Origin: a virus
Reading direction: 5' to 3' (one strand)
DNA: 40,359 nucleotides
Virus record (IMG/VR): IMGVR_UViG_3300012006_000014
Span: 1 to 40,359 of that record
Each line of letters begins with the position of its first letter. Positions within the stretch are counted from its first letter, which is position 1. Positions 27,376 through 40,106 of this stretch are shown here, one piece after another. Below the pieces are notes generated by a model that saw nothing but the letters and a program-made list of their open reading frames with translations, had not been told where the DNA came from and ran no database searches. Both the position numbers and the translations under genes were made by a program.

Positions 27376-27535
27376 TATCCAAACTCTTTTTGCTTTTATC
27401 AACGATGTACATGACTTTAATTTTTTTGCCGTTCTCAACTGGAGTCAAAGACAATTTGGGCACTATCACTTCTTTGCCTTTATCGTTTATTTCTTTTTCG
27501 CTGTACTCCCACATCCACCGCATGCCTTTACCCAT
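27368..27535 (-). CDS. Hypothetical small protein, 55 aa
   Basis: A compact reading frame beginning MGKGMRWMWEYSEKE with a GGGAG site eight bases upstream. It has a few strand segments (VIVPKLSLTPV, KIKVMYIV) and no known motif. It overlaps its neighbours on both sides by eight bases, which supports a real gene between the winged-helix protein and the next gene. Confidence 0.68.
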   Translation of the reverse strand: MGKGMRWMWEYSEKEINDKGKEVIVPKLSLTPVENGKKIKVMYIVDKSKKSLDND

Positions 27536-28103
27536 TGCTGTTTCTCCCGTCAGTAAGTTTTAACTGTCGGTTCCACCGACTGTCCGTTGAGTATAGATCC
27601 AAGCTCTTAGTACTTTTCCCTTTCTTTTGGTTTTCCTTCTTATAATTATTTTTCTTTCTTATTTGGGTGTCTGTGGAGTCACTCAATATGAGTGTCTCTG
27701 GAGTCACTGCAGGAGTGTCTGTAGAGTCACTACTAAATACCCCAGTGTCTCTGGAGTCACCCCCATTAATTAAGGCTTCTGCGGCTGCCGTATTGTACGT
27801 AATTACGTACAAATTTGGCATGTTCTTTCCATGCCTACCCATCTTTACAATTTTGCGGATAACTCCAATCTCAACCAAACGATGCATAGCTCTAATCACA
27901 GTTCTGCGGTTGTATCCAGTATCTCTTGCTAAAACGTCATAGGTCGTAGATAAAGTTTGGTCATGTGTATTCATGTAACCAATGGCACAAGTCAATACGT
28001 GCAAAGCTATGGAATCGCCTTTCATGTATTTAACAACCCAGGTCGGTATGGAAATCCAAGGACCTCCTAATTTGGTATTCTCGCCTGCACTTTTCTGTTT
28101 CAT
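27528..28103 (-). CDS. Winged-helix protein, candidate replication initiator, 191 aa
   Basis: Residues 17-102 form a winged helix-turn-helix of the type seen in plasmid and phage initiators: helices around 30-45, the HTH at 52-72 (TTYDVLARDTGYNRRTVIRAMHRL), and a wing ending in LYVITY. Residues 113-147 are a linker encoded by four iteron repeats, and 148-166 are very basic (RKKNNYKKENQKKGKSTK). This layout, with iterons inside the gene and a helicase loader downstream, is like the O-P region of phage lambda. Likely role: binds the iterons and recruits the DnaC-like loader. The ribosome site is GAGAGGA. Confidence 0.8.
   Translation of the reverse strand: MKQKSAGENTKLGGPWISIPTWVVKYMKGDSIALHVLTCAIGYMNTHDQTLSTTYDVLARDTGYNRRTVIRAMHRLVEIGVIRKIVKMGRHGKNMPNLYVITYNTAAAEALINGGDSRDTGVFSSDSTDTPAVTPETLILSDSTDTQIRKKNNYKKENQKKGKSTKSLDLYSTDSRWNRQLKLTDGRNSNG
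27611..27664. other. AT-rich tract beside the iterons, candidate unwinding element
   Basis: A pyrimidine-rich, strand-asymmetric stretch (T-rich on plus); in 27631-27664 only about 5 of 34 bases are G or C. It abuts the first iteron. In iteron-type origins the first strand opening occurs in such a tract. It is coding, for the lysine-rich part of the initiator candidate, which lowers but does not remove its value as evidence. Confidence 0.5.
27667..27760. repeat. Four 16-bp iterons, candidate replication origin
   Basis: Copies are at 27667-27682, 27692-27707, 27715-27730 and 27745-27760 with plus-strand consensus GTGTCTSTGGAGTCAC (one copy has an A in place of a G). Each copy is itself a near-palindrome (GTGnCTCnnGAGnCAC), as for a dimer site. 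Start-to-start distances are 25, 23 and 30 bp, so the second copy is read in another frame from the other three: it encodes VTPET, while the others encode DSTDT or DSRDT. Conservation is therefore of DNA rather than protein. Confidence 0.78.
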
Positions 28104-28246
28104 ATAGTTGCATCCTCTCTAGTGATCGTGTTATGCTTTTGCTAAGTAAACGGTTCCCTTCTCCCGTTTACTATTGCGAGTTATTTAGTAACTGCGCAAG
28201 GCCCACTTGATAGTGGGGGCGTTGGTTTCCCTTCTTACCAACGTCC
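28104..28246 (-). ncRNA. Structured noncoding segment with four tandem hairpins
   Basis: No gene lies between the stop at 28247 and the start at 28103. In transcript order the segment has H1 28221-28242 (6-bp stem, 10-nt loop), H2 28202-28217 (6-bp stem, 4-nt loop), H3 28174-28199 (10-bp stem with one bulged base, 5-nt loop) and H4 28146-28171 (8-bp stem, 10-nt loop), separated by only 2-3 bases. H1 and H4 have unrelated stems but loops AAGAAGGGAA and GAGAAGGGAA. No T-run follows any of them, so they are not plain terminators. It may be a structured leader, a small RNA or part of the origin. Confidence 0.6.
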
Positions 28247-28873
28247 TCACTGTGGGTTTAAAAACTCCAATATTTCCTTTTTAGACCCGTTAACTGACAT
28301 AAGTTGTCCGTCCTTTACATAGGTGAGCATATACAGCTCATTAGAGGGCTTAGAAACTGAATCCTGTGTAGGGGGAAGGGTATCCTTTTTTGACGCATCC
28401 TGGGGCTTCCTAGAGGCCTCTACGGGCTTATCTTCTACTGGTTGCCCGACTGTCAATGGGACTAAACCGTTACATAGGTCTAAAGTCTCCATTTCCTTTG
28501 CATTGGCTGTAAGGACAATCTCTTCTACAAATTGTGTAGGTTGGTCAAAGGTAGCAACTTCATCCCACAAAACGAGCACTGTGGCGTCAGGGTAGCTGTC
28601 CAAACTATCCTCAACAAGGTTGTTTACTTTTACAACTCGGTTTGCAGCACCTTCAACAATGTGATGAACTTTTGTATCGGAATGAATTACTGTGAATGAC
28701 GCTGAATGTTCTATGAGCCAATCGTAAACACGACCCTGACCATCGGTGGGTTTGCCAGTCCAAAGAACCACAAACTCTTTTGCGGTCAACGACACGTCGC
28801 TTAAACCTGTTTCAATTACATTTGCGTTTGAATTGCCAGTACCAGCAATTATGTAGTACCTAGATTTTTGCAT
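28247..28873 (-). CDS. Hypothetical protein, 208 aa
   Basis: The N-terminal 135 residues have an alpha/beta pattern (YYIIAGTGNSNANV, EFVVLWTG, FTVIHSD, TVLVLWDE) that recalls a Rossmann-like domain, though the GTGNSN turn does not match a known nucleotide-binding signature. Then comes a disordered linker rich in P, K and D (about 145-180) and a small C-terminal segment (ELYMLTYVKDGQLMSVNGSKKEI). A strong AGGAGG site precedes the start. It is between the tail and replication modules; function unknown. Confidence 0.78.
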   Translation of the reverse strand: MQKSRYYIIAGTGNSNANVIETGLSDVSLTAKEFVVLWTGKPTDGQGRVYDWLIEHSASFTVIHSDTKVHHIVEGAANRVVKVNNLVEDSLDSYPDATVLVLWDEVATFDQPTQFVEEIVLTANAKEMETLDLCNGLVPLTVGQPVEDKPVEASRKPQDASKKDTLPPTQDSVSKPSNELYMLTYVKDGQLMSVNGSKKEILEFLNPQ

Positions 28874-36489: not shown

Positions 36490-39173
36490 TAGGTTGTCCT
36501 CAACAATTCTCTCTTAAGATCATTATCCAGTAATCGGGCTATTTCTTCAGCCATACGTCTTGCGTCTGACGGGTTGTTTCCTGTAGAGGTTACATATATG
36601 TTCGGAGCAATTGTAACACTAGTGCCACCAGCAACTTGAACAGTTGTGCCACCACGAGTAGGTTCGTTTACAATTGGGTCACCTTGGTCAAGACCTAGTT
36701 GGCGAGTAATCGCTTGAGCTTTGGGCATAATTTCTTGAGTACCCGCCATTGGGTTTCCCTCTTTGTTCCATGGAGAATAGTTACCTCCACCAAACAAAAT
36801 GCGTGCAGCTTTAATATTTAATTTGGGATCATACAAATCTTCGTTTTTGCTAATACCAAATTGTTGTCTACGTTTAATTGGGTCTAAACCTACTGACTTG
36901 TCGTCTTTCATATTAATTTGAAATAAACCATACGATAAGTCATCGGAATCATCAGCAAGCTCACCTGGTCGCCAACGTGATTCACGCCAAGAAATAGCAA
37001 GCATGTTTGTAATGTCTTTTCCTTTGAACCCACGACGGCTCAACAACTGAGCAATCTCAGCTGGGTCCATAGCCCCACCAGGTGTTGTTCCAGCTCCTTG
37101 TGGACTCTTTGAAGAACTTTCTCCGTAAGCTGCTTTACTTACAACACCAGAACTAGCAGCTCCATCCATTTTTTCAAAGTTAAAGTTTCCTGGTCCTGAA
37201 ACAATATCGCTAATACTTACTTGATTAAATGTTTCAGCGCCACCATGACCACTTGGTGAATACTTTGCAAAGTACTTATCTCCTACAACATAACCACCTT
37301 TAGGTGTACCAGTAGATGGATCTAGTGTTACTGAACCCTTAGACGTACCAGCAGGTTGACCCCATTTAGAACCTTGTTTTTCGTATTCCCATCTAGAATC
37401 AGGAAGCTCTGCTGGTTGGATGTGCCAAGGTTCTCCTAAATTTTTACCAAATGTTTTTAGACCGTATTTAGCAGCGTTTTCTTGAACCCAATCAAGGTCT
37501 CCAACCAAGTCTGCAGCCAAACCAATTTCGTGCATAGACCGTCCCGGAGGAGCAGCAGGTGCACCTGAAATGTGTTTATATTGTTCTCCGTTGTATTCAA
37601 CATCACCAGCAGATCCGTCTGTTACTTTTTTGTAACGACTAAAAAACAATGCTCTTTGATCAGCTTCAGAACGAGTACCGACTCCCAAACCAACATTAGG
37701 GTTGTCTGCAAACATTCGCAACAAACGATCTTTAAAAGTAGAATTCAATGTTCTAAAACTTGTAGAGTTTGATAATTCACCAAGGCTTACACGTTTTGCA
37801 GGGCTTCCATAACCCATTGGAACTTTTGCACTTCCTCCAGGTTTTACTCCACTTTCTGGCGGGTCACCCATCAACGTAGCACCAAGCATGCTTAACCCAA
37901 GGCTTCCACCAAACGTTGTTGGAGCAAGGAAAGTACCTGCAGCCATCAACGCTGCTCCTCCAATTTTTCTGCCAATACTTCCTCGTGAAGAGATATTGGC
38001 ACCAATAAGTCCACTTAATGTTTCTTCTAATTGACCAAGTGCTCTTGTAACTGCTTGGGTATTCTTTTCAAATTGAGCTAAATTATCTGCTTGTCGCCTG
38101 TAGTAATTCTCGTCACGACCTTCTTTAACACGTGCTGTTTCTTCAGCTTGTGTTGCAACGTTTTTCTCAATACCCATGATTTGACGATCTGATTTTTTAG
38201 ATGGATCGTACATTGTTGTTTTGCCAGTTTTCTTTTGATACTGAACATTGGCATTTGCATAATCTAAAATTTGATCAATCATGTCTTCTGGTACACCAGA
38301 CGCCATCAACATAGCCCTAGTGTTAGACCCTGCTTGACGAGCACCAGCAAGTCTTCCCTCATTAGTAAGACCAGTTCTTTGAACAATTTGTTGCATGACT
38401 TTATCCATGGAGCGTTGTTGCCCACCAAGACCGTACATGCCAGTGCCCAACATCATTGTCAGTCTGTTGTTAGCAGCAGGTCCTGCAAGGGTTGCAGCTT
38501 GTTGTGCAAGTTGATCTGTACCAATTGAGTAACCAGAGAGTGCACGCATACCAGCAAAGCCAGCGGCGTTTCCTTGAGCACTTAAACCTGTCTGTGCTTG
38601 CATGGCAAGCATTGTGCTAATTCCGCCGTAGCCAAGTCGTTCGCCCATCATTGGTTGACGCATTCCAACATACTGCATTTGAGAAATGCCTTGTTGTTGC
38701 TGATAGTAAACACCTAACTTGTCAACAGACAACGAACGATCATAATTGTTGTCCATACGCTGGTTCATTGCATCAATGGTCATTGCTAGGTATTGCATAC
38801 CTTGTGCTGCACGACCACCTGCACCTCCACCACCGCCACCACTCTTAGGGATAAGTGGAACTCCAGCTGCAACGTAAGTTTGATTTTGAGCTATGTTCCC
38901 AGTAGACACACTTGAAGTTTTTGGGTCTCCAAGTGGTGGCGTAACCGCATAAGAAGTTAGTGACCCTCCTCCGCCTCCAGGTAATCCTCCGGCAGCTTTA
39001 ATACCTTGAAGATGTTTAAGAGTTTGAGATAGTTGAGTGTTTACGTTTTTAAGGCTTTTAGATAAGGCATCAAAATCGGTACGAATGGATTTAACACCTT
39101 TGACCAATTTTTCCATTTGGTCAACGTCAACTTTAAACTTAGCTCGTAAGTCTCCTAGGTTTTTTTCTGCCAT
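36489..39173 (-). CDS. Tape measure protein with M15 peptidase and SLT domains, 894 aa
   Basis: The N-terminal 60 residues are coiled-coil, followed by glycine-rich linkers and helical segments with hydrophobic stretches (about 403-436), as in tape measure proteins. Residues about 465-600 form an M15-type D-Ala-D-Ala peptidase: H548 and D555 in SMHEIGLAADLVG, H584 in EPWHI. Residues 700-830 form a transglycosylase: catalytic E731 in RESRW, SYGLFQIN at 747-754. Both enzymes could help the tail cross the cell wall. It follows a frameshift-type assembly gene. The length would match a tail of about 130 nm if the usual 1.5 angstrom per residue holds. Confidence 0.88.
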   Translation of the reverse strand: MAEKNLGDLRAKFKVDVDQMEKLVKGVKSIRTDFDALSKSLKNVNTQLSQTLKHLQGIKAAGGLPGGGGGSLTSYAVTPPLGDPKTSSVSTGNIAQNQTYVAAGVPLIPKSGGGGGGAGGRAAQGMQYLAMTIDAMNQRMDNNYDRSLSVDKLGVYYQQQQGISQMQYVGMRQPMMGERLGYGGISTMLAMQAQTGLSAQGNAAGFAGMRALSGYSIGTDQLAQQAATLAGPAANNRLTMMLGTGMYGLGGQQRSMDKVMQQIVQRTGLTNEGRLAGARQAGSNTRAMLMASGVPEDMIDQILDYANANVQYQKKTGKTTMYDPSKKSDRQIMGIEKNVATQAEETARVKEGRDENYYRRQADNLAQFEKNTQAVTRALGQLEETLSGLIGANISSRGSIGRKIGGAALMAAGTFLAPTTFGGSLGLSMLGATLMGDPPESGVKPGGSAKVPMGYGSPAKRVSLGELSNSTSFRTLNSTFKDRLLRMFADNPNVGLGVGTRSEADQRALFFSRYKKVTDGSAGDVEYNGEQYKHISGAPAAPPGRSMHEIGLAADLVGDLDWVQENAAKYGLKTFGKNLGEPWHIQPAELPDSRWEYEKQGSKWGQPAGTSKGSVTLDPSTGTPKGGYVVGDKYFAKYSPSGHGGAETFNQVSISDIVSGPGNFNFEKMDGAASSGVVSKAAYGESSSKSPQGAGTTPGGAMDPAEIAQLLSRRGFKGKDITNMLAISWRESRWRPGELADDSDDLSYGLFQINMKDDKSVGLDPIKRRQQFGISKNEDLYDPKLNIKAARILFGGGNYSPWNKEGNPMAGTQEIMPKAQAITRQLGLDQGDPIVNEPTRGGTTVQVAGGTSVTIAPNIYVTSTGNNPSDARRMAEEIARLLDNDLKRELLRTT

Positions 39174-39175
39174 TA

Positions 39176-39337
39176 TTACTCCTGTCTACGCCAACGGCTC
39201 ATCGCCGCCCAATAGGTGCGCTGACGCACCGTCATATTTTGTATGTCGTTGAGCGAGAAGCCCTTGTAAACAGATGCAATAGCATCGTAATCCCAATATG
39301 TACTTACTAGATTAGCCGAATAAAAGGGAGGCCCAAT
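39176..39337 (-). CDS. Second part of a tail assembly protein, likely made by frameshift
   Basis: A 53-codon open frame with no ATG, GTG or TTG before its middle and no ribosome site. It is in the +1 (or -2) frame relative to the gene at 39312, overlapping its last eight codons, and ends two bases before the tape measure ATG. It encodes WDYDAIASVYKGFSLNDIQ and MTVRQRTYWAAMSRWRRQE, the kind of sequence seen in the extension of tail assembly chaperones. The shift must occur within about 39315-39337. I cannot identify the slip site for certain; TCC-CTT-TTA is a candidate. Confidence 0.6.
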   Translation of the reverse strand: MGPPFYSANLVSTYWDYDAIASVYKGFSLNDIQNMTVRQRTYWAAMSRWRRQE

Positions 39338-40106
39338 TTAGTGCGATTGGGAAAGGTTTTTCGCAATGGGCACAGTGGGCTTCCACCTCCTTGATTTCTG
39401 GGCCTGGTTGTGCTTCAAGTAACTTGTCAATAATCATGGCACGATCCTTCATGCCAAGACTTTTAGCCCATTTCTCAACGTCTGCTGGTTTGGTACCATC
39501 GTCCCAGATAGCGCAACGAGAAATAAGTATTGTGTTTTGCTCAGGAATGCTCTTTGCTTTCTTGCCAACAGTCTGACTGTCTTTTCCTGATACAAGACGG
39601 AACTTTTGTTTTGTTCCGTTACGCAACGTAACTACAAGTGGTTCTTGTGGGTTTCCTTTTGGTTTTTTAATTGGAAATTCTGACATCTCAATAAGTACGT
39701 CATTTGATTTTTTGCAATGAGGGCAGTTAATTTCGTACTCACGATTCTCACCATAGGTTGCACGAACTGTTGCAAGAAACAAAGAATCCCTGTCGCCCAA
39801 AATGAGGGCATCAACGACGTCCGGCTTTTCGGATACTTTTATGTTTCCAATAGTGACAACACTTCGTTTTAAAAGTGCTGCCATGTATTGGGCGTAAAGC
39901 AAATCATCATCGGCATCTAATGCTGCCAATGCTTCTTCGTCTTCGCCAGTTAACTCTTTTACTACGGCTGTTGTTTCCCATTCTTTAGTAGCTTCATTAA
40001 AAATACCACAAACTAATTCTAAGGTGGTATTTGGTGTTGAAACTATTCGTGGAACAGGATCGGATATAGCCGCCGCGACAGCCAGTGCATCTTGTTGTGT
40101 ACCCAT
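39312..40106 (-). CDS. T4 gp26-like tail/baseplate assembly protein, 264 aa
   Basis: The order of elements (helical ALLKRSVVTIGNIKV, DRDSLFLATVRATYGE, then C128-x2-C131, a long middle, and a second pair C245-x2-C248) matches the T4 gp26-type base plate protein family found just upstream of tape measure genes. Two CxxC pairs probably hold zinc. It has a strong AGGAG site at its ATG. By position, and given the overlapping second frame at 39176-39337, it is probably the tail assembly chaperone of this phage. Confidence 0.78.
   Translation of the reverse strand: MGTQQDALAVAAAISDPVPRIVSTPNTTLELVCGIFNEATKEWETTAVVKELTGEDEEALAALDADDDLLYAQYMAALLKRSVVTIGNIKVSEKPDVVDALILGDRDSLFLATVRATYGENREYEINCPHCKKSNDVLIEMSEFPIKKPKGNPQEPLVVTLRNGTKQKFRLVSGKDSQTVGKKAKSIPEQNTILISRCAIWDDGTKPADVEKWAKSLGMKDRAMIIDKLLEAQPGPEIKEVEAHCAHCEKPFPIALNWASLLFG

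Follow-up and report, generated by a model that had tools for sequence, protein, structure and literature searches.

Hairpins lying ahead of the replication initiator gene in an uncultured phage belong to a new RNA family, a conclusion that is well supported by comparison with relatives. The window, meaning the whole stretch of DNA analyzed here, comprises 40,359 bases and is a virus record from IMG/VR. Within it, we predict a small noncoding RNA of about 115 nt on the plus strand (28144-28260), based on covariation, strand polarity, and a drop in conservation after 28265. Our reading of the locus as a whole is that a promoter placed like lambda pO serves a plus-strand phage small RNA whose loops act in trans, most likely in translation control, and we put the probability of this complete statement at about one half. 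Its parts are held with different strength: the plus strand and the fold are well supported, and the transcript itself is what we infer. An earlier note, made from the letters of the window, had pointed to a folded, conserved RNA beside the initiator gene with loops that are probably read by something; this is supported, a small RNA being one of the options that the note had offered.

The record encodes a T4-type baseplate protein, a DnaB-like helicase, a DnaC-like loader, a DNA polymerase, and an O-like initiator. As DNA, the locus had no similar phage record in the collection searched. The best protein matches of the polymerase and DnaB were in Streptomyces phages, at ~33% identity, and from these matches our guess is an actinobacterial host; our search confirmed no bacterial genome encoding the initiator. 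The initiator gene (27528-28103, minus strand) encodes a 191-aa lambda-O/RepL-like protein with a helix-turn-helix (HTH), which matched PHROG replication initiation families (best E 3e-11), HTH_36 below the curated cutoff and, weakly, P1 RepL by tblastn (E 5e-3). Four iteron-like direct repeats with the core GTGTCTSTGGAGTCAC, spaced 25, 23, and 30 nt, lie within this gene (27661-27761) and are probably the origin. The arrangement of the repeats at 27661-27761 is lambda-ori-like. On the other side of the RNA is a gene for a 208-aa protein (28247-28873, minus strand) that is conserved beside the RNA in relatives and whose 3' end overlaps the last hairpin. This protein had no PHROG, Pfam, or phage-record match. 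Its structural model (mean pLDDT 79) was Rossmann-like, the nearest structures being Moco carrier and LOG proteins (best Foldseek E 2e-3), with no PDB match at E <= 0.001.

Four back-to-back hairpins had been described at 28146-28242, and their coordinates, arms, and loops were as claimed, including two nearly identical minus-strand loops, AAGAAGGGAA and GAGAAGGGAA, on the unrelated arms GTTGGT and GTAAACGG. This 97-mer folded better than its dinucleotide shuffles on both strands (z -3.7 on plus, -3.2 on minus), and AGAAGGGAAMC occurred twice in the window against 0.04 expected. The hairpins are present, but the last two of the four (28202-28242) proved to be the bulged upper parts of a single hairpin spanning 28200-28258. 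On the plus strand, hairpin A (28145-28172) has a 9-bp stem and the loop UUCCCUUCUC (28154-28163), which is invariant in clade I while the stem covaries. Hairpin B (28174-28199) has a small loop in the window; in clade III, relatives carry (U)CCCCYUUUCU as its loop. Hairpin C (28200-28258) consists of an outer helix (28200-28206/28252-28258), a 5' bulge UUGAU (28207-28211), a 15-bp inner helix (28212-28226/28237-28251), and the loop UUCCCUUCUU (28227-28236). Its 3' strand extends beyond the end first noted and covers the stop codon of the neighboring gene.

Scans for relatives, in which the initiator, the loader, and the protein of the upstream gene served as queries, yielded 28 distinct IMG/VR intergenic sequences flanked by the same two genes. 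The RNA was kept in all of them at one syntenic site, between the gene of no known family and the lambda-O-like initiator, and initiator identity to the window ranged from 100% down to ~37%. We sorted the sequences by eye into clades I (the window and nine near relatives), II, III, IV (L024), and V (L177 and L180). Hairpin C, with its outer helix, 5' bulge, inner helix, and pyrimidine loop, was present in every clade, in differing sizes.

Covariation exceeded that of shuffled and slid controls, as expected of a structured noncoding RNA. In a plain MAFFT alignment of group I, two-sided changes were seen in 10 of 42 pairs, a result matched by 0 of 500 shuffles, and RNAalifold gave two-sided changes in 11 of 29 pairs for group III. 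Across all 28 sequences, in an alignment that was itself fitted to the covariance model, 39 of 42 pairs showed two-sided changes, with a score of 0.681 compared to 0.195 for shuffled and at most 0.130 for slid alignments. A covariance model built from group I alone scored the same syntenic site in 28/28 sequences (E 3e-40 to 8e-3). Searched across eight whole records, the model hit a single site in each of six; in the other two, nothing reached E <= 1, and the copies were seen by synteny. The earlier note had looked to relatives for covariation and for retained loops and stems; both were found, in the note's favor. No Rfam family (of 4227) matched the window above its gathering cutoff, and in a relaxed search with the region and four relatives, all scores fell far under the cutoffs.

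Among the relatives, the stems have changed almost wholly, and a short pyrimidine-rich sequence in two or three loops has stayed nearly constant. Nearly all members have a YCCYUUCUU-like loop in hairpin C, and all but one have a second such loop. By clade, the C loop contains CCCUUCUU in I, II, and IV, UUUCCUUCUUUG in most of III, and CCCCUUUUU in V. In full, it reads UUCCCUUCUU in nine members of group I and ACCCUUCUUU in L022, UUUCCCCUUCUUUGA in group II, mostly UUUCCUUCUUUG in group III with UUUUUCUCUUCUUUG in L031 and L040, UUGCCCUUCUUGA in group IV, and UUUCUUCCCCUUUUUC in group V. The second pyrimidine loop is carried by hairpin A in clades I, II, and V and in L032, and by hairpin B in clade III. 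L024 has no pyrimidine loop in hairpin A, and some clade III A loops are also off motif. The pattern of a fixed loop on a changing stem, first remarked on in the window, was thus seen far beyond it, in 28 distinct sequences, though some loops of some members depart from it; it is a family tendency rather than an invariant. The loops had also been likened to a near Shine-Dalgarno (SD) sequence, which reverses on the RNA strand, where the loop reads CCCUUCU and is anti-SD-like. A scan of IMG/VR for the loop doublet returned 105 matching stretches; those of the same clade were at this locus, and the rest looked like chance matches or tandem repeats. One of these, in L107 (904-1827), is a repeat array with AGAAGGGAAAACGG(G/A)GTCAA every ~66 nt that is probably unrelated to the RNA.

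Because the loops are conserved while the stems change, we infer that something acting in trans reads the loops. We propose that an extended -10 promoter, lying ahead of the initiator gene and directed away from it, would give rise to a plus-strand RNA of ~115 nt, antisense to the operon, which would fold into hairpins A and B and the bulged hairpin C. At least two hairpins in most members would present a YCCYUUCUU-like pyrimidine loop on freely varying stems; these anti-SD-like loops would pair with mRNAs of the host or the phage at purine-rich ribosome-binding regions, and such pairing would control translation during phage replication. We hold this loop-based translation mechanism tentatively, at somewhat below even odds. 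Independently, the promoter, by analogy with lambda pO, may set the amount of operon transcription that reaches the origin in the initiator gene.

A cis-acting antisense RNA would instead pair in full with a readthrough mRNA running from the upstream gene into the initiator, beginning with loop-loop contact and lowering initiator synthesis as plasmid copy-number RNAs do. The position is suited to this, since the RNA is by its placement antisense to the intergenic leader of the initiator gene and starts just ahead of its SD. In this placement it resembles CopA/RNAI-type countertranscripts of plasmids, and an overlap with the initiator mRNA would depend on where that mRNA starts. Its stable bulged stems and short loops, and the fact that most of each record has its genes on a single strand, are also in keeping with this model. 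A fully complementary cis target would exert no pressure on the loops, yet it is the loops that stay and the stems that change; the loops of plasmid countertranscripts diverge, and those of the phage RNA are conserved instead. No promoter is known for an mRNA spanning the region, and we regard cis pairing as unlikely. We are similarly doubtful that the pyrimidine loops titrate or recruit a phage or host protein (Rho, a protein with an S1 domain, or one of the phage's replication proteins, for example). Repeated binding sites would fit a loop that recurs two or three times in similar form on unrelated stems, and none of the targets tested is as constant as the loop sequence, but loop size and closing pairs differ among clades, which fits pairing through linear sequence better than a fixed protein site.

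To examine possible mRNA targets, we took as gene starts those that paired best with a presumed anti-SD tail, a procedure that favors SD-like leaders. Loops paired no better with the leader of their own initiator than with those of others (swap test, both loops, p about 0.5), and pairing with the phage's own initiator SD was rejected on this flat result. When mean pairing with phage leaders was calculated, shuffled pyrimidine loops did as well in most of 12 tests, and a general tuning of the loops to phage leaders was likewise rejected. Three C loops were exceptions, with no correction for 12 tests: that of G008 gave 0.010 on both the leader and the leader-minus-control measures, and those of G004 and G006 stood out on the latter measure only (0.015 and 0.05). 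AGAAGGG was found at SD positions in one of eight genomes (G003, 3 of 7). In G003, the record behind L039, AGAAGGG(A/G) stands just 5' of the start codon in three genes (oriented coordinates 49668, 56730, and 57584); these sites are complementary to the loops and absent from the other seven genomes. AGAAGGGRA occurred nowhere except at the RNA in G001 and G002, which are near clade I records. Collectively, the tests on phage genes were negative or inconsistent and supported no phage target.

The 3' tail of actinobacterial 16S rRNA is near ACCUCCUUUCU, which the loops appear to resemble. The E. coli 16S end, as read, is ACCUCCUUA, and the loop complements in E. coli rRNA comprised a few 7-mers and nothing telling. 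By copying the host tail, the loops could act as a decoy or a broad repressor of translation, to the benefit of phage mRNAs, whose start sites for the most part avoid the exact loop complement; we consider this improbable.

The promoter motif of the small RNA (28108-28137, plus strand) comprises a -35 element TTGCAT (28108-28113), which overlaps the SD region of the initiator, and a -10 element TATGCT (28132-28137), separated by an 18-nt spacer that ends in TGT (28129-28131) as in an extended -10 promoter. The pattern TT(G/A)-N16-18-TGnTAnnnT, picked after the first sequences had been viewed and having a background of one per 10,980 nt, was found at the same place in 28/28 sequences, with TTG in 27 and hairpin A beginning ~8 nt beyond. 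A generic sigma-70 scan with stricter hexamer rules listed no promoter at 28108-28137. The RNA would begin 7-9 nt past the -10 element and probably ends at the base of hairpin C. Group I identity falls from ~0.9 to ~0.6 beyond 28265, and this drop suggests a 3' end nearby; no U-run terminator was found at the RNA locus. It is quite unlikely that the promoter alone matters, firing against the operon as pO does to tune transcription through the origin, with the RNA as a by-product. This model draws on the geometry shared with lambda, the motif in 28/28 sequences, and the precedent of pO inactivation (PMC3985674), but a by-product RNA would not retain covarying stems and fixed loops.

The structure is very likely an RNA of the plus strand, antisense to the replication operon. 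The minimum free energy was lower on the plus strand in 27/28 sequences, which, being related, do not amount to 28 independent tests. Mean fold z was -5.8 on plus compared to -4.2 on minus, and the strand difference exceeded that of shuffles by 1.7 sd on average. A helix search that treats both strands alike, in which some picked helices lay outside the three hairpins, counted 57 G.U and 8 A.C pairs on the plus strand; the model-fitted alignment, whose model itself favors G.U, gave 107 and 8. Since G.T is also tolerated in DNA, more so than A.C, wobble polarity alone is no proof of RNA and is compatible with a single-stranded DNA element, such as a primase site or single-strand origin as in phage G4, that folds when its strand is exposed. 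The earlier note had considered such an origin part, and the hairpins do adjoin the iteron-bearing initiator gene, but all 28 sequences have the conserved promoter motif at a constant spacing from hairpin A, which favors an RNA, and we consider a DNA element highly improbable. A minus-strand leader or attenuator of the initiator mRNA, another early suggestion, was rejected as scarcely credible: the minus strand too folds better than shuffles, but it is the weaker fold and has mismatches where the plus strand has G.U, and the conserved promoter motif points away from the initiator.

The closest parallel in position is lambda oop/pO. At both loci, a divergent promoter stands where an O-type initiator gene with four internal iterons begins, the promoter here being recognized by its sequence, and both follow the order upstream gene, RNA, initiator, helicase loader (oop/pO, O, and P in lambda; PMC3985674). 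In lambda, inactive pO lowers replication, normal levels of oop have no effect in trans, and oop is antisense to cII (PMC3985674). Unlike in lambda, the upstream gene has no family match, and hence no link to cII; the antisense overlap is small, covering only the last codons of that gene; the RNA shows repeated near-fixed pyrimidine loops; and no U-run terminator was found. Our covariance model had no match in lambda 38200-39700 or in the replication region of Streptomyces phage Alone3, and homology to oop or to an Alone3 RNA was rejected on these grounds.

The loops have their parallel in bacteria. Among rhizobial sRNAs, SmelA075 forms three hairpins and SmelA099 four, with the anti-SD sequence CCUCCUCCC in the loops and more variation in the stems (PMC3927594). 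These RNAs and the CcsR or 'cuckoo' RNAs (RF02791, CcsR1) resemble the phage RNA in carrying similar anti-SD-like loops on variable stems, with L024 as the exception here. They differ from it in loop sequence, which is YCCYUUCUU-like in the phages rather than CCUCCUCCC, and in that the phage RNA lies at a replication locus. The CcsR1 family is named for its conserved CCUCCUCCC motif. The best CcsR1 score, in relative L177 (1042-1147, minus strand; E 0.55), was at chance level and below the cutoff. Partial anti-SD loop motifs of Staphylococcus aureus RNAIII and other sRNAs also bind ribosome-binding sites (as stated in PMC3927594); RNAIII is unrelated to the phage RNA in sequence and host. The phage RNA appears to be previously undescribed, with the position of lambda oop and the loop pattern of the rhizobial sRNAs.

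These data point to an RNA family without an Rfam match that occupies an oop-like place in uncultured phages and has a loop pattern otherwise known from bacterial anti-SD sRNAs. Two loops and one promoter offer a defined handle on the role of the divergent RNA at lambda-type origins, a matter of continuing debate in lambda itself. Should the loops work in trans, the phages would possess a compact regulator made of RNA, in which the recognition loop is repeated.
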